Below are positions 8,175 to 15,484 of a stretch of 42,715 nucleotides of DNA, piece by piece. Position numbers and translations under genes: made by a program. The stretch comes from Candidatus Peribacteria bacterium (GTDB lineage Bacteria > Patescibacteriota > Gracilibacteria > UBA1369 > LOWO2-01-FULL-3): positions 1-42,715 of the forward strand of contig CALREX010000007.1 of assembly GCA_943356465.1 (NCBI GenBank). The letters are read 5' to 3'. The notes below the pieces were generated by a model. That model had not been told where the DNA came from. It made no database searches and saw only the letters and a list, made by a program, of their open reading frames with translations. Every line of letters begins with the position of its first letter. The stretch's first letter is position 1.

Positions 8175-8216
8175 TTGCCAAACCTGCATTTAGCACTGTA
8201 TAATCGCAACTGCTAA
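8175..8216 (+). promoter_or_regulatory. hrcA promoter with degenerate CIRCE operator
   Basis: TTGCCA (8175-8180), 18 bases, TATAAT (8199-8204). The -10 sits in the spacer of a CIRCE-like repeat, TTAGCACTG-N9-AACTGCTAA (8190-8216). The consensus is TTAGCACTC-N9-GAGTGCTAA; the right arm has three changes and the left one. Same geometry as the perfect site before dnaK, so HrcA likely autoregulates weakly here. Confidence 0.85.
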
Positions 8217-8978: not shown

Positions 8979-9545
8979 ATGGCTGACAAAAAAGACGACA
9001 AAAATCAGAAAAACGAGAAAGTTGATTTAAAAAAGAAACTCGAAGAAGCGCAGAAAGAAGCCGAAAAACTTGACGAGGCTATTTCAAGCGAACAAGGTTC
9101 AGACACAACTCAGTCAGATGAACTTTCACAAATGACAGAAACCGCAAAACGCACGATGGCGGATTTCCAAAACTACAAAAGACGAGTTGAAGAAGAAAAA
9201 AAATCTTGGGCGATTTTTGCAAATCTAGAATTGATAAAAAATCTTTTACCAATTTTTGACAACTTCAAAAGAGCGCAGACACATGCGCCAAAAGACGCAA
9301 ACGAAGAGACCCTGAAGTGGCTTCAAGGAATCGGAATGTCTATAAACCAACTTGAGAAATTACTTCAAGATTTCGGCGTCAAAAAAATCGAAGCCCTTGG
9401 TCAAAAATTCAATCCGGACTTCCACGAAGCCCTAGCCCAAGACAAAGGCGAAAAAGACATCGTCATAGAAGAACTCGACGCCGGCTACATGATGGGCGAC
9501 AAAGTCCTAAGACATGCCAAAGTGAAGGTAGGAAACGGGGAATAA
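8979..9545 (+). CDS. grpE: Nucleotide exchange factor GrpE
   Basis: A 188-residue GrpE, the ADP-release factor for DnaK. Residues 1-60 are a highly charged, probably disordered tail. Residues 45-100 form the long dimer helix (TAKRTMADFQNYKRRVEEEKK). The C-terminal beta domain carries the family signature NPDFHEALAQ and ends GYMMGDKVLRHAKVKVG. It is in an operon with hrcA (12-base gap) and therefore under the degenerate CIRCE site. Its stop lies 5 bases from the end of the opposing fusion gene, leaving no room for an intergenic terminator. Confidence 0.95.
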   Translation: MADKKDDKNQKNEKVDLKKKLEEAQKEAEKLDEAISSEQGSDTTQSDELSQMTETAKRTMADFQNYKRRVEEEKKSWAIFANLELIKNLLPIFDNFKRAQTHAPKDANEETLKWLQGIGMSINQLEKLLQDFGVKKIEALGQKFNPDFHEALAQDKGEKDIVIEELDAGYMMGDKVLRHAKVKVGNGE

Positions 9546-9549
9546 GGTT

Positions 9550-12500
9550 TTACTCCTGCACCCTGCTTATTAGGGGTCTATTTGGATTAGCAGAAAGAGC
9601 TTTATCTATCACCATAGCAATCTTTGCAGCTACAGCTACAACAGTTTTTATGGTCATATTTGGGGAAGCATAAAGACGGAGTGTCTCTTTAGAGTAAGGC
9701 CCATATCCACCACCAAGCTCAGCAATATCAGTTGCATCATGCCTGATTGCACCTTGATCTCGATCCACGGCTGTAGCATGAAGAAGCACGTCAGAACGAT
9801 CTCTCGAATCATGAACTGCATAAGAAAGATGTTTCACTTCAGCAGAAGAAGTCGGCGCACGATTTCCATTATCTGTTTCATAATCAGACAAAAGAGCAGC
9901 GGACAAAAGACGAATTTTCTGCTTTGTTTCAAATGCAATATGGTCAATTCCACCCCTTAAAATAAAATCATCGAGCGCTCTTTCAACTTGCAAAATTCCC
10001 CTCAAATTATGAAATTTTCCAGCTTTAGCTTCTTCAAGCATCTTCACAAAAGTGCCATACTGCGGAGCTTCAGGTAAAGCAACTTGTTTTTTACCTTTTA
10101 CATTAGGATTTCTTTCGGAATGATATTCTTGAGCCCTCCTCATAGCACGAGGAGAAACAACCATAAAACCAATACCGGAAGGTACTCCAAAAAATTTTTG
10201 GAAAGATCCAAAATAAATATCCATGTCTTCAAAAGTTCTGGAAACAGCTCCAGCCTCAGAAGTACCATCAACAATTTTTAAAATACTTGGATCAAGCCTC
10301 TTAGAAAGCGCTGAAACATCAGCCTGTACGCCAGTTGAAGTTTCATGACCTGTCATAAAAAATCCACAATTTGATTCTCGAAGAGATCTAGGCTGGTTAC
10401 TCCTCACCTCGCCAACAACAGTATCCATTCTACTATTCGGCCCTGTTCCCCATCTCATTTGAATATTTTTAACCTTGGATCCTGGTTTTGAAAATTTACC
10501 AACAACAGACTGTTGCCTATCACCAAAAGCCCCCATACTAAGCACAATAGAATGATCCAGCCCAAGACTTGCCACAATTTGCTCCATAGATTGAGTGGCC
10601 GAACCACTAAAAAATATTTCGTAATCTTTCGGAATTTGTAAAAATTCACGAAGCTTGGCCTTAACAGCTTCAACTTTTGCTATTCTAGTTTCAATACTGG
10701 CAACACGGAACGAATCAGCAGAAGCATTTATCTCTTTAGCATTTTTTATAATATCAGGATGTATTTGAGAAGGACCTGGATTAAAAGTAACAAAACTTTC
10801 CTGTTTTTGAAGTTTTTCAGCATCAACTTGAGGAGAAATATCTCTAGTCTGTCCATTCATTTCCGCAAGCGCAAGACCCAGTTCAGCAATAACCTGCATT
10901 TTCGGAGTCTCAATCGTAGAATGAGGCATCTTATTTAAACCGTCAAAAGCATGAACATATCCAACATTATTCCCTTTCTTGGCTAGCTCTCTCGAATACT
11001 TCACGGCAGCCATAGAAGTAATAATAATTCCCATTTCTCCGCCCGTCCCAAAAGATTCAGCACTATAAACAACAACATCAGCTTTTTTCCTGTCTTCAAC
11101 AGAAATAGCCACAGAACCATCAATACATAAAACCTTCTTCATACCCGCAAATCTTTCATCATCAAGAGCTTTTGTGTCAGACAAAACAACAGTAGAAACA
11201 CCTTTCAAATCAGCAGAATCAGAACTCCTCAAATCCGCTACCTTTCCTCCATTTTTATAATCAGTAAGACTAACAAGCGCCATATGCAAAGCTTTTTCCG
11301 GAGACTGCGCATAAAAAATTCTGTCATCAAAATCAAGATTAAAATAATCACGCAAAAGACCAATAACTTCAGTAAAAACATTCATGGCTTCCGGACTTCT
11401 GTGAGAATTTTGACACCAAAGAGTAATAGATTTTGCAAGTCTTGCCCGCAAAGAAGGATTTTCATGTACACCCTCATCGGCCGCAAAATAATTCAAAAGT
11501 CCTCCAGGCATTCTTATAGGACGCGCATGAAGTTTAAATTTATCATTTCTTGCACCAAAAGTAGCACCACCATATTGTTCAATATAATCAAAAATATCCG
11601 CCGCTTCTTGAGGTTTCTTCTCTTCCAAAAACCTCGTATACTCGGTGGAAGAAACATTTCCTTTTTCCCCAGCCGCAATAGTAATTCCAGATTCTCCATC
11701 AAGAGAAATCAACCCTTCATACATCTTAGCAAGACGACCTTCCAAAAATGCCATATTTTCAGCAGCTCTACTCTGATGATCCTGTTCCTTCAATGGGAAA
11801 GTTACACGAATATGTGCATCGACTCCTCCCCCGCCAATTTTATCACTATTTCCGGGATAATTATGTCCATAAATATAAATCTGGGCATCACGGGCATCAG
11901 CATCTTGAACATAAGCATGATAAATAGCCCAAATTTTTTGGTAAGCAATTTTCGCCATTGCAGGATCTTGAAGAGAAACCTTCAAATTTAAATCAGTCGA
12001 TTTTGTAGGACCTTCTTTTTTTGATTCTCTTGCCGCAACAGCAACGCCTTCTCTTGCCTTTCTGAAATCATTCATATCTCCATCACTAAATGGAATAACT
12101 CCATCAATATTTCCATCATCATCGACAGGCAAGAGACCTGTACCAACGAATTCTCTTAAATCATCAACAAATTCACCTTGAGAAATATCCGTCTCTTCAT
12201 ACAAACGTCCAAGATATTCTTCCAATTGTACACGCGGCATCGAGGTACGACCATTTATCATAAGCCCTGTTTCACATCTTCTATCCCTCATAAATTGCAA
12301 CATAGAACCAACCCCACCTTTTCCATCAGCACCTTCCTTCATCATATCAAAAGTAGCATGAATACCTTTTCTAGTGACAATCTCAAATCCCTTAACATGT
12401 AAATTTTTATCATGTTTTCCACGTAAAATTCCGTCACCTACTGCACCTTGCACATTACGTTTCTCAGATTCTGTGAATTTTCCCATCGCAGCCATAAAAC

Positions 12501-13308
12501 TCGGGAAAGCCTCAGTCAAACCATGCTCAAGACTTCCGGGAAAAGGAATAAAAAGTCCAAATTCATAAGGTTGTTCCTTCACAATTTCCATATCAACTTC
12601 TGAAATTGCACCAGCAAGACCACCAAGTCCAACCTGTCTTTTCGCCTCCTGTCCTTTCAAATGATGAATTTTTCCATCTTTATCAATAACAATAAGTCCA
12701 TGTAAATTAAATCCTGCATCCTCTCTCACAGGCCCCTGCCCTCCAGTTGCAACAACAGCAGCAATACGGGCAGAATCACGAGTAGTAAGATCAAGATAAA
12801 TACTATGACCCTTACCAAGATGCTTTACCAATTCATCATTGATGTCATCCGGAATCGTCCCACCCCAAACCTGAACCCTATTAGGAACTCCGGCACTCTT
12901 GCTCTTTAAAATTCTTCCTTGTCCTTTTAAAATAGAAATCGTTTCATAAACATTTCCATCAACCTCGATTTTTTCAAATTCATCAGGTCTTCCCTCTCCG
13001 TCTATCTTTATACCAACCCATCCTTTAAGCCCGTGTGTCGCAGCAGACTTAAAAGCGCTTACAGCGCTTGTCAAAGACCCAATCGGCATCACGCCATAAC
13101 CCATTTCCTTTGCAATTTCAACAATTGTTGCTATATCGGATGTAGATTTAACATTACAAGTACATTCCACTTCAACTCTATTTCCACCATCATCAAGAAG
13201 AGGATCGTTAGAATGAAAAATCCCAGCTTGTTCAAGTGCCTCTATCATATTCTTAGGAACTTTGGTCTCTATATCTGCATTTCCTAAATCAGGAACATCA
13301 TTTGCCAT
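9550..13308 (-). CDS. FAD-linked oxidase / degenerate PLP-fold / class V aminotransferase fusion protein
   Basis: A 1252-residue protein with three parts. Residues about 45-240 resemble the FAD_binding_4 fold (VMPIGSLTS, VVATGGQGPVREDAGFNLHGLIVID). Residues about 290-595 resemble FAD_oxidase_C of the glycolate/D-lactate/2-hydroxyglutarate oxidase family, including a modified GEKGNVSSTEY in place of GEHGIG. Residues 600-820 look like a class V aminotransferase fold (NSHRSPEAMNVF, IDGSV) whose PLP lysine position reads YSAESFG, with no lysine. Residues 838-1245 form a second, intact class V domain: FNPGPSQIHP, HETSTGV (988-994), Asp1014 in IVDGTSE and PLP Lys1038 in SFQKFFG. Oxidation of a 2-hydroxyacid followed by transamination is a reasonable guess (glycolate to glycine, or a serine route), but the substrate is inferred. 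It lies opposite to and between grpE and dnaK. Confidence 0.8.
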   Translation of the reverse strand: MANDVPDLGNADIETKVPKNMIEALEQAGIFHSNDPLLDDGGNRVEVECTCNVKSTSDIATIVEIAKEMGYGVMPIGSLTSAVSAFKSAATHGLKGWVGIKIDGEGRPDEFEKIEVDGNVYETISILKGQGRILKSKSAGVPNRVQVWGGTIPDDINDELVKHLGKGHSIYLDLTTRDSARIAAVVATGGQGPVREDAGFNLHGLIVIDKDGKIHHLKGQEAKRQVGLGGLAGAISEVDMEIVKEQPYEFGLFIPFPGSLEHGLTEAFPSFMAAMGKFTESEKRNVQGAVGDGILRGKHDKNLHVKGFEIVTRKGIHATFDMMKEGADGKGGVGSMLQFMRDRRCETGLMINGRTSMPRVQLEEYLGRLYEETDISQGEFVDDLREFVGTGLLPVDDDGNIDGVIPFSDGDMNDFRKAREGVAVAARESKKEGPTKSTDLNLKVSLQDPAMAKIAYQKIWAIYHAYVQDADARDAQIYIYGHNYPGNSDKIGGGGVDAHIRVTFPLKEQDHQSRAAENMAFLEGRLAKMYEGLISLDGESGITIAAGEKGNVSSTEYTRFLEEKKPQEAADIFDYIEQYGGATFGARNDKFKLHARPIRMPGGLLNYFAADEGVHENPSLRARLAKSITLWCQNSHRSPEAMNVFTEVIGLLRDYFNLDFDDRIFYAQSPEKALHMALVSLTDYKNGGKVADLRSSDSADLKGVSTVVLSDTKALDDERFAGMKKVLCIDGSVAISVEDRKKADVVVYSAESFGTGGEMGIIITSMAAVKYSRELAKKGNNVGYVHAFDGLNKMPHSTIETPKMQVIAELGLALAEMNGQTRDISPQVDAEKLQKQESFVTFNPGPSQIHPDIIKNAKEINASADSFRVASIETRIAKVEAVKAKLREFLQIPKDYEIFFSGSATQSMEQIVASLGLDHSIVLSMGAFGDRQQSVVGKFSKPGSKVKNIQMRWGTGPNSRMDTVVGEVRSNQPRSLRESNCGFFMTGHETSTGVQADVSALSKRLDPSILKIVDGTSEAGAVSRTFEDMDIYFGSFQKFFGVPSGIGFMVVSPRAMRRAQEYHSERNPNVKGKKQVALPEAPQYGTFVKMLEEAKAGKFHNLRGILQVERALDDFILRGGIDHIAFETKQKIRLLSAALLSDYETDNGNRAPTSSAEVKHLSYAVHDSRDRSDVLLHATAVDRDQGAIRHDATDIAELGGGYGPYSKETLRLYASPNMTIKTVVAVAAKIAMVIDKALSANPNRPLISRVQE

Positions 13309-13394: not shown

Positions 13395-13435
13395 TTGACC
13401 ATTCTTTTTTAGCACTCTATAATTACGAGTGCTAA
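13395..13435 (+). promoter_or_regulatory. dnaK promoter with perfect CIRCE operator
   Basis: TTGACC (13395-13400), 17 bases, TATAAT (13418-13423). The -10 box lies within the nine-base spacer of a perfect CIRCE element, TTAGCACTC-N9-GAGTGCTAA (13409-13435). HrcA bound here would block RNA polymerase directly. Confidence 0.97.
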
Positions 13436-13489: not shown

Positions 13490-15484
13490 ATGTCAAAAAT
13501 AATAGGTATCGACTTAGGAACAACAAATTCCTGTGTTGCAGTAATGGAAGGAGGCGAAGCGATCGTCATCCCAAACTCTGAAGGTGGACGTACAACTCCA
13601 TCAATTGTTGCGATCAAAGACGGCGAAAGACGCGTCGGAATTTCAGCAAAAAACCAATCAGTCACAAATCCTGAAAACACGATCTACTCAGCAAAACGTT
13701 TCATTGGTCGCCAATTCGGCGAATCTACAACTGACATAAAAAGAGTTTCATACAAAACAGTAAAAGGAGGAGATGGAGAAGTAGAAATAATTCTTGATGG
13801 AAAACAAAGAAGACCTGCCGAAATTTCCGCAATGGTCCTTCAAAAACTAAAAGCAGACGCAGAAGCGTACCTTGGATATGAAGTAAAAGAAGCGGTCATC
13901 ACAGTTCCTGCATACTTCAACGATTCTCAAAGACAAGCCACAAAGGACGCCGGAAAAATCGCCGGACTTGATGTAAAAAGAATCATAAACGAACCGACTG
14001 CCGCAGCACTTGCATACGGAGTTGATAAAAAAGGAGGTGAAAAGAAAGTCGCAGTCTACGACTTTGGTGGAGGAACTTTCGACATCTCTATTTTGGAGCT
14101 TGGAGAAGGCGTTTTCCAAGTAAAATCTACAAACGGAAACACTCAACTTGGAGGAGATGATTTGGATGCAAGAGTCGCAAAATGGCTAGTAGATGAATAC
14201 AAAAAACAATACGGCGCAGACATTTCTACGGATAAATTGGCAATGCAAAGAATCAAAGAGTCGGCAGAAAAGGCAAAAATCGAACTATCATCTTTGCACG
14301 AAACTACAATTTCACTTCCATATATCACTGTCGACAAAGACGGTCCAAAAAACTTTGAAGCAAAATTAACTCGTTCAAAACTTGAGGATTTGGTTATGGA
14401 CTTGATTGAATTAACAGAAGAACCATGCCGAAAAGCGATGGAAGATGCGAAAATTTTCGAAAGCGACATTGACGAAATTATCCTTGTTGGAGGTATGACT
14501 CGTATGCCGGCTATCCAAGAAAAAGTAAAATCAATCTTCGGAAAAGAGCCTAGCAGAGGATCAAATCCTGATGAAGTCGTTGCACTTGGTGCGGCTATCC
14601 AAGGAGGAATTTTGCAAGGAGACTCCAACGTAAAAGACATTTTGTTGGTCGACGTGACTCCCCTTTCACTTGGAATCGAAACACTTGGTGGAGTTAACAC
14701 AATTTTGATTGAAAGAAATTCAGCGATCCCTACATCAAAATCACAAGTTTTCTCAACAGCCGCCGACAATCAAACATCTGTGGAAATCCATGTTGTCCAG
14801 GGTGAACGTCCGATGGCAATTGATAATAAATCACTTGGAAAATTCGTACTCGACGGAATCCCACCGGCTCCACGAGGAATGCCACAAGTTGAAGTTTCAT
14901 TCGACATCGATTCAAACGGAATTTTGAATGTAAAAGCGATGGATAAAGCCACAAATAAAACACAGCACATCACGATCGCCGGAAGCTCAAACATGAGCAA
15001 AGAAGAGGTCGAACAAAGACGCAAAGAAGCTGAAAAATACGCAGAAGAAGACAAGAAAAAGAAGGAAATGATTGAGATGAAAAACCAAGCAGAAAGCCTG
15101 ATAATTCAATCCGAAAAAGCGATCAAAGATGCCGGAGATAAAGTCTCTGACGAACTTACAAAACCAATCAAAGAAAAGATTGAAACTTTGAAAAAAGTTT
15201 TGGAAAACAAAGATGCTTCAGTCGAAGAAATCAAAACACCTTACGAAGATTTGAGCCAAGAGATCCAAAAAATCGGTGCTGAGCTATACAAGAACGCCCA
15301 AGCCAGCGGAGCCCCTGCAGGCGCAGAAGGCAGCGAACCTAGCCACGACGCAGGTGGAACAGAAAATGCCGACGATGACGTCAAAGTCTACAAAAAAGGT
15401 GACAAAAAGAAAGGCAAAAAAGGTGCTGATGATGTAGTGGAAGCGGAAGTTGTGGATGAAGAGAAAGAGGACAAGGAGGACTAA
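13490..15484 (+). CDS. dnaK: Chaperone protein DnaK (Hsp70)
   Basis: A full-length 664-residue Hsp70. The ATPase domain carries [17 protein letters not shown] at the N-terminus, [22 protein letters not shown], the [13 protein letters not shown] phosphate loop and [13 protein letters not shown]. The substrate domain follows from about residue 390 ([14 protein letters not shown]). The C-terminal 60 residues are a charged Lys/Asp/Glu-rich tail. It refolds and protects proteins with GrpE and a J-protein; no dnaJ lies in this window. Expression is controlled by a perfect CIRCE operator, separate from the hrcA-grpE unit. The ATG has no Shine-Dalgarno sequence. Confidence 0.98.

Follow-up and report, generated by a model that had tools for sequence, protein, structure and literature searches.

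Domain layout of the fused protein

The window analysed here, positions 1 to 42,715 of contig CALREX010000007.1, belongs to a 1.08-Mb genome with a completeness of 98% and carries on its minus strand a single ATG-initiated frame of 1252 amino acids (Table 1). The initial annotation of this DNA described one 1252-residue frame holding a FAD (flavin adenine dinucleotide) oxidase-type domain and two class V aminotransferase-like domains, and re-reading the frame gave the same picture: from N- to C-terminus, the protein consists of a FAD domain, a middle copy (M) and a C-terminal copy (C). The residues singled out in that annotation were also read correctly (D730 in IDGSV and YSAESFG at 748-754; HETSTG at 988-993, D1014 and K1038). 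The nearest named relative, at 77% identity, belongs to a Candidatus Peribacteria metagenome-assembled genome. We know of no named enzyme in which a FAD domain precedes a dead and a live class V copy, and we found no description of this layout in the open-licence literature, which is weak evidence of novelty.

Profile searches of the separate parts identified C as Aminotran_5, M as class V by hhalign and the FAD half as a weak FAD_binding_4. The Pfam Aminotran_5 family matches C at 842-1147 (E 3.8e-9, above cut-off), and its best match in the PDB, by sequence and by fold, is the SerC structure 3ffr (Z 42.3, 354 residues, 2.1 A). C has the lysine that binds pyridoxal 5'-phosphate (PLP), K1038, together with the ring Asp D1014, the HETSTG loop and R1211. 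It scores 50.6 bits with the NCBIfam SerC equivalog, below the threshold of 477, and it has no copy of its own of the residues that class V subunits lend to each other (H-R and T-x-x-T-P).

The second of the two tandem class V-like domains is complete, and the first is a truncated copy. M alone has no Pfam match. In hhalign, its profile aligns over 191 columns with that of 18 stand-alone class V enzymes (probability 99.4%, E 8.8e-22), and it also matches 3ffr (E 1.1e-5); in a control hhalign run of M against the FAD alignment, the match was limited to 22 residues shared by both alignments. In the AlphaFold2 (AF2) model, the strands and helices of M follow one another much as in fold type I, so the possibility that residues 600-830 do not adopt this PLP fold was not borne out. 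The aligned part starts at the SHR motif and ends at the TP motif; absent from M are the N-terminal GPS segment, the central stretch with the ETSTG loop, the small C-terminal domain and the PLP lysine. The protein thus joins one copy without a PLP lysine to one copy of the same fold that has it. A fully independent active site in M was considered and rejected, because the lysine is absent in five of six copies and M has neither a small domain nor a GPS segment nor an ETSTG loop of its own.

In the FAD half, FAD_binding_4 falls just below cut-off (E 2e-5) and is matched in 14 of 16 relatives. A search of the FAD profile against PDB sequences returned nothing at 0.01 (best 0.084), so the assignment is carried by the fold search. 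The AF2 model of this half, which is of middling confidence (predicted local distance difference test, pLDDT, 76; predicted template modelling score, pTM, 0.77), matches mouse D-lactate dehydrogenase (Z 26.9, 424 residues) and human D-2-hydroxyglutarate dehydrogenase (Z 26.6). Residue roles were mapped by motif rather than by residue-level structural alignment, using the metal ligands, carboxylate Arg and catalytic His described for LDHD and D2HGDH (PMC10589216, PMC7801405). By this measure the metal-binding H482, H499 and E548 and the carboxylate-binding R419 have counterparts. The GlcD/D-lactate type named in the initial annotation thus holds for the fold and the metal triad and fails at the catalytic His, which is replaced by Lys549. 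We suggest that the FAD half functions in outline as D2HGDH and LDHD do, and we do not claim membership for it.

Table 1. Features of the fused gene in the window, with the basis of each assignment
Feature	Position	Strand	Basis or remark
Fused gene, whole	9550..13308	-	ATG at 13308, stop 9550-9552; homologous fusions in seven other genomes
FAD domain, VAO/PCMH fold, D-2-hydroxyacid dehydrogenase-like	11509..13308	-	Residues ~1-600; Pfam, AF2, fold search
R419	12052..12054	-	Counterpart of substrate-carboxylate Arg (D2HGDH Arg386; PMC7801405), by motif; invariant in 16 relatives
H482 ... H499	11812..11865	-	Counterparts of two metal-binding His, by motif; invariant in 16 relatives
E548-K549	11662..11667	-	Metal-binding Glu retained; catalytic-base His is Lys in 16/16 relatives
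M, truncated lysine-less class V large domain	10843..11457	-	Residues ~618-822; hhalign, 3ffr, AF2
S635-H636-R637 in M	11398..11406	-	Counterparts of SerC His41'/Arg42', partner-subunit residues; role from PMC6797613
T798-x-x-T801-P802 in M	10903..10917	-	Counterpart of AtAGT1 Thr250'-Pro251 loop, whose Thr binds the partner's PLP phosphate; PMC6797613
C, SerC/AGXT-like class V aminotransferase	9589..10797	-	Residues ~838-1240; Aminotran_5; 3ffr fold match
K1038, PLP lysine of C	10195..10197	-	Alignment with relatives
D1014, PLP ring-nitrogen Asp of C	10267..10269	-	Alignment with relatives
R1211, substrate-carboxylate Arg of C	9676..9678	-	Unchanged across the stand-alone relatives; G341, which has no PLP lysine, has lost it

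Residue complementation between the two aminotransferase copies

In the dimers formed by class V aminotransferases, each active site is completed by residues of the partner subunit. Using 18 stand-alone relatives as a reference set, we defined 21 invariant residues and compared them with the six lysine-bearing fusions. H34, R35, T238 and T241 are missing from C in all six and P242 in five (the exception, G362, has Pro at this column). M holds all five residues in all six fusions and lacks K189, the Glu of the ETSTG loop (E138), the substrate Arg (R336) and most other invariant columns. In G121 and G362, C also deviates at two or three further invariant columns. Published structures give roles to these residues: in SerC, His41'/Arg42' extend from the other subunit to the substrate, as do the equivalent Tyr35'/Arg36' in Arabidopsis AGT1, where Thr250' of that subunit binds the PLP phosphate (PMC6797613), and in Arabidopsis phosphoserine aminotransferase the same His-Arg pair is located at the substrate phosphate (PMC6043687). 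Given these roles, M has retained what a partner lends and C what the owner of a site needs, and C is accordingly not an ordinary homodimeric class V member.

Two fusions whose C copy is dead provide a natural control, since loss of the catalytic lysine is accompanied by loss of the partner residues in the other copy. In lysine-less G341, C has lost Lys, Gln and GP, contains ALRSSAS and has Ser at the counterpart of R1211; its M reads PVGSPE and DVPN instead of SHRSPE and ETPK. In G612, C carries a large deletion with no Lys or HETSTG, and M reads HPDSLE and DTLQ. As G341 and G612 sit in different subclades of the FAD-domain tree, the decay of the partner residues represents two independent events. 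For the six lysine-bearing fusions, the branching of the M tree is that of the C tree.

M and C were also modelled together with AlphaFold2 (residues 600-1252; 653 residues, 26 sequences), giving pLDDT 87.9 and pTM 0.89. C accounts for only some two thirds of the modelled residues, and a pTM this high would be hard to attain unless M were confidently placed on C.

We consider it very probable that M is a built-in dimer partner that forms one hybrid active site with C, a reading that draws on the evolutionary evidence and on the predicted model for the M-C packing. C would provide the PLP lysine, the ring-binding Asp, the phosphate loop and the substrate Arg; M would provide His636-Arg637 toward the substrate side chain and Thr798/Thr801-Pro802 toward the PLP phosphate. 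Each M-C pair would then contain one hybrid site, compared with two in an ordinary dimer. The initial annotation had proposed such a partner, and the proposal is now backed by reciprocal residue loss, by correlated loss in two lineages and by the AF2 placement.

Several observations weigh against this reading. The five complementing residues fall in two loops and amount to two coincidences rather than five independent events. Human AGT has no counterpart of the His-Arg pair, and its loss in C alone could be a specificity effect. The decay in the lysine-less fusions is partial, with the Pro retained in G341 and the second Thr in G612. Finally, M of G342 keeps a Lys (SAEKFG) at or beside the ancestral PLP-lysine column, possibly as a relic.

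Were M instead only a spacer, or what is left of a decaying copy, C would pair with the C of another chain, as the family rule predicts, and most of the catalytic residues and the small domain are indeed gone from M. However, C of all six lysine-bearing fusions has lost partner residues found in every one of the 18 stand-alone relatives, M keeps exactly those residues, and their decay in M is confined to fusions with a dead C, which is not expected of a spacer; we regard this explanation as very unlikely. The remaining alternative is a variant that overlaps with the built-in partner: in a domain-swapped homodimer, M and C of two chains would combine into two M-C' sites. Residue complementation is silent on which chain supplies M, and the P-protein of glycine decarboxylase is a homodimer of two-half chains (PMC7259800). 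Against this, the AF2 model shows M packed with confidence on the C of its own chain, although a single-chain prediction cannot display the swapped form. On balance we think that swapping is unlikely.

Distribution, genomic context and possible coupling of the two halves

Homologous fusions occur in seven other genomes (G325, G326, G342, G341, G121, G362 and G612). Six of these proteins are 77, 72, 41, 28, 25 and 22% identical to the window protein, and the seventh is a decayed fusion. An assembly error or chance join can thus be rejected. G325 and G326 belong to the same genus as the window genome, as does G226, which has no fusion; G612 lies outside the order, within which the fusions, that of the window included, span families f1, f6 and f4. 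A FAD-only gene of 567-644 aa is present in eight genomes of the order. In the FAD-domain tree, a branch with support 94/96 separates the eight fusions from the other sequences, which makes a single fusion origin likely; the rooting of this tree and the long G027 branch fit either gain or loss of the tail. In G362 and in every FAD-only genome but G027, the gene has a divergent TrmB-like regulator as a neighbour (two checked with Pfam), which suggests a common ancestral locus.

Outside the class, we found only stand-alone C-like genes in samples of the phylum; for other phyla, coverage consisted of a single pattern scan aimed at close relatives. A viral or plasmid origin was rejected, as no viral relative was found and plasmid matches were limited to the C domain. 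The fusions at L027 (G121), L028 (G362) and L029 (G341) carry about 190 aa after C that are absent from the window protein. C-like matches in five class members (G485, G443, G451, G478 and G484) contain many in-frame TGA codons, suggesting a recoded TGA in that lineage.

The fused gene lies antisense between grpE (8979-9545) and dnaK (13490-15484). A perfect CIRCE element (HrcA operator) is located at 13409-13435, in the gap that separates dnaK from the fused gene; a second, with 3 mismatches, lies at 8190-8216, upstream of hrcA. The fused gene has a promoter-like site at 13382-13353, and heat-shock co-regulation of the gene is possible on this arrangement of sites. In G342 (L030, 1149-12974), the fused gene follows pta-ackA-pflB-pflA-like genes, of which pta and ackA were judged by eye.

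How the FAD half might serve the transaminase is a weaker part of our proposal. The FAD domain may bind a metal through H482, H499 and E548 and use it to oxidise a small D-2-hydroxy acid, and the 2-oxo acid so formed may be a natural substrate of C. Our best guess is a conversion of D-glycerate to hydroxypyruvate and on to L-serine, outside the phosphorylated serine route, and we offer it tentatively. Equally tentative is the broader picture of a self-contained converter of a D-2-hydroxy acid to an L-amino acid (probably D-glycerate to L-serine), in which a Lys would act as the base of the FAD domain and the 2-oxo acid would be handed to the hybrid-site transaminase.

Genome context weakly favours hydroxypyruvate, D-glycerate and serine. 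In the window genome, a glyoxylate/hydroxypyruvate-reductase-like 2-hydroxyacid dehydrogenase (377.8 bits, the cut-off being 455) adjoins a glycerate 2-kinase-like gene, and in G121 and G341 the same pair follows a class I aminotransferase (named by family search in G121). Glycerate kinase is found in five of the seven fusion genomes of the order and in 13 of 82 others (Fisher p 0.003, shared ancestry ignored). The only other strong class V match in the window genome is one full-length enzyme of cysteine-desulfurase size. As for serine genes, serine hydroxymethyltransferase (SHMT) is present and no SerB was found over cut-off in this genome. Synthesis of serine, glycine and alanine has been described as possible in this class in a study of aquifer Peribacteria (PMC4736985).

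Other observations count against coupling. The position of the catalytic-base His (His476 of D2HGDH) is occupied by Lys549. Family f4 has glycerate kinase throughout, and ancestry accounts for part of the association above; G342 has a fusion and no glycerate kinase. In G341 and G612 the FAD motifs persist beside a transaminase that no longer looks functional, and, with the transaminase lost twice in this way and FAD-only relatives in existence, the halves are not strictly interdependent. The dead transaminases and the FAD-only relatives would also fit a fusion that serves co-regulation or stability alone, in which case the transaminase substrate would not come from the FAD half. We take this to be a serious possibility, though one that we are more inclined to doubt than to accept: the fusion has one likely origin and has been retained in three families of the order and one lineage outside it, and a maker of 2-oxo acids beside a user of 2-oxo acids is chemically apt.

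Two other routes share the coupling and differ in the substrate. The closest relation of C is SerC, and M has the SerC-type His-Arg, which binds phosphate or carboxylate; one protein could then oxidise 3-phosphoglycerate, itself a D-2-hydroxy acid, to phosphohydroxypyruvate and convert this to phosphoserine. This route, and with it the phosphohydroxypyruvate suggested in the initial annotation, is disfavoured by the lack of a SerB match over cut-off in the window genome, by the low score of C with the SerC model and by GYGPYSKE where E. coli-type SerC has the gate-loop His-Arg (loop from PMC6043687), and we judge it quite unlikely. Conversion of glycolate through glyoxylate to glycine, a one-protein salvage, would suit the AMP phosphorylase- and ribose-1,5-bisphosphate isomerase-like genes beside the fusion in G342, G341 and G121, the RuBisCO of G342 and G341, and the weak match of one relative to glcD. 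However, RuBisCO is absent from the window genome, G121 and G362, and glycolate arises from RuBisCO oxygenation whereas one of the neighbours in G342 resembles pyruvate formate-lyase, an oxygen-sensitive enzyme. We consider this route improbable as well. If the D-glycerate-to-serine proposal or a related coupling holds, the fusion may reveal the source of serine or glycine in an organism that has few amino-acid pathways.

Comparison with known systems

LCB1 of serine palmitoyltransferase lacks the PLP lysine. LCB1 and LCB2 are fused in most Emiliania huxleyi viruses (PMC5371807), which places two subunits in one chain as in the protein described here; serine palmitoyltransferase belongs to the alpha-oxoamine synthase family, whereas our protein is of class V and carries a FAD domain. 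The P-protein of glycine decarboxylase (GcvP) likewise has two fold-type-I copies per chain, which correspond to the alpha and beta subunits (GcvPA/GcvPB) of other species (PMC7259800). This likeness follows the published description; the P-protein is of another subfamily and catalyses another reaction, and in the fusion M is cut to a partial large domain behind a FAD enzyme. By analogy with these two systems, the principle of paired fold-type-I copies in one chain would already be known.

Class V domains fused to another enzyme have been described in the Mycoplasma penetrans methionyl-tRNA synthetase (MetRS; 9os7) and the Treponema PntC-AEPT (6pd1) (PMC13215547), but those proteins have one aminotransferase copy per chain and dimerise between chains. 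The FAD half shares with LDHD, D2HGDH and GlcD its fold and, by motif, the metal-binding H/H/E and the carboxylate Arg; it differs from them in having Lys549 for the catalytic-base His, a wider His-His spacing in the fusions and a fused transaminase. With the SerC/AGXT-like enzymes (3ffr, and AtAGT1 6pk1), C shares its fold and active-site residues, and the M-C pair shares the partner-borrowed residues. Those enzymes are homodimers with two identical sites, whereas here the borrowed residues lie in a second, lysine-less copy. If the built-in partner is real, this protein would to our knowledge be the first class V aminotransferase in which the change from a homodimer to an asymmetric pair with one chain and a single site has been demonstrated, and it would offer a clean test of how a symmetric obligate dimer becomes asymmetric.

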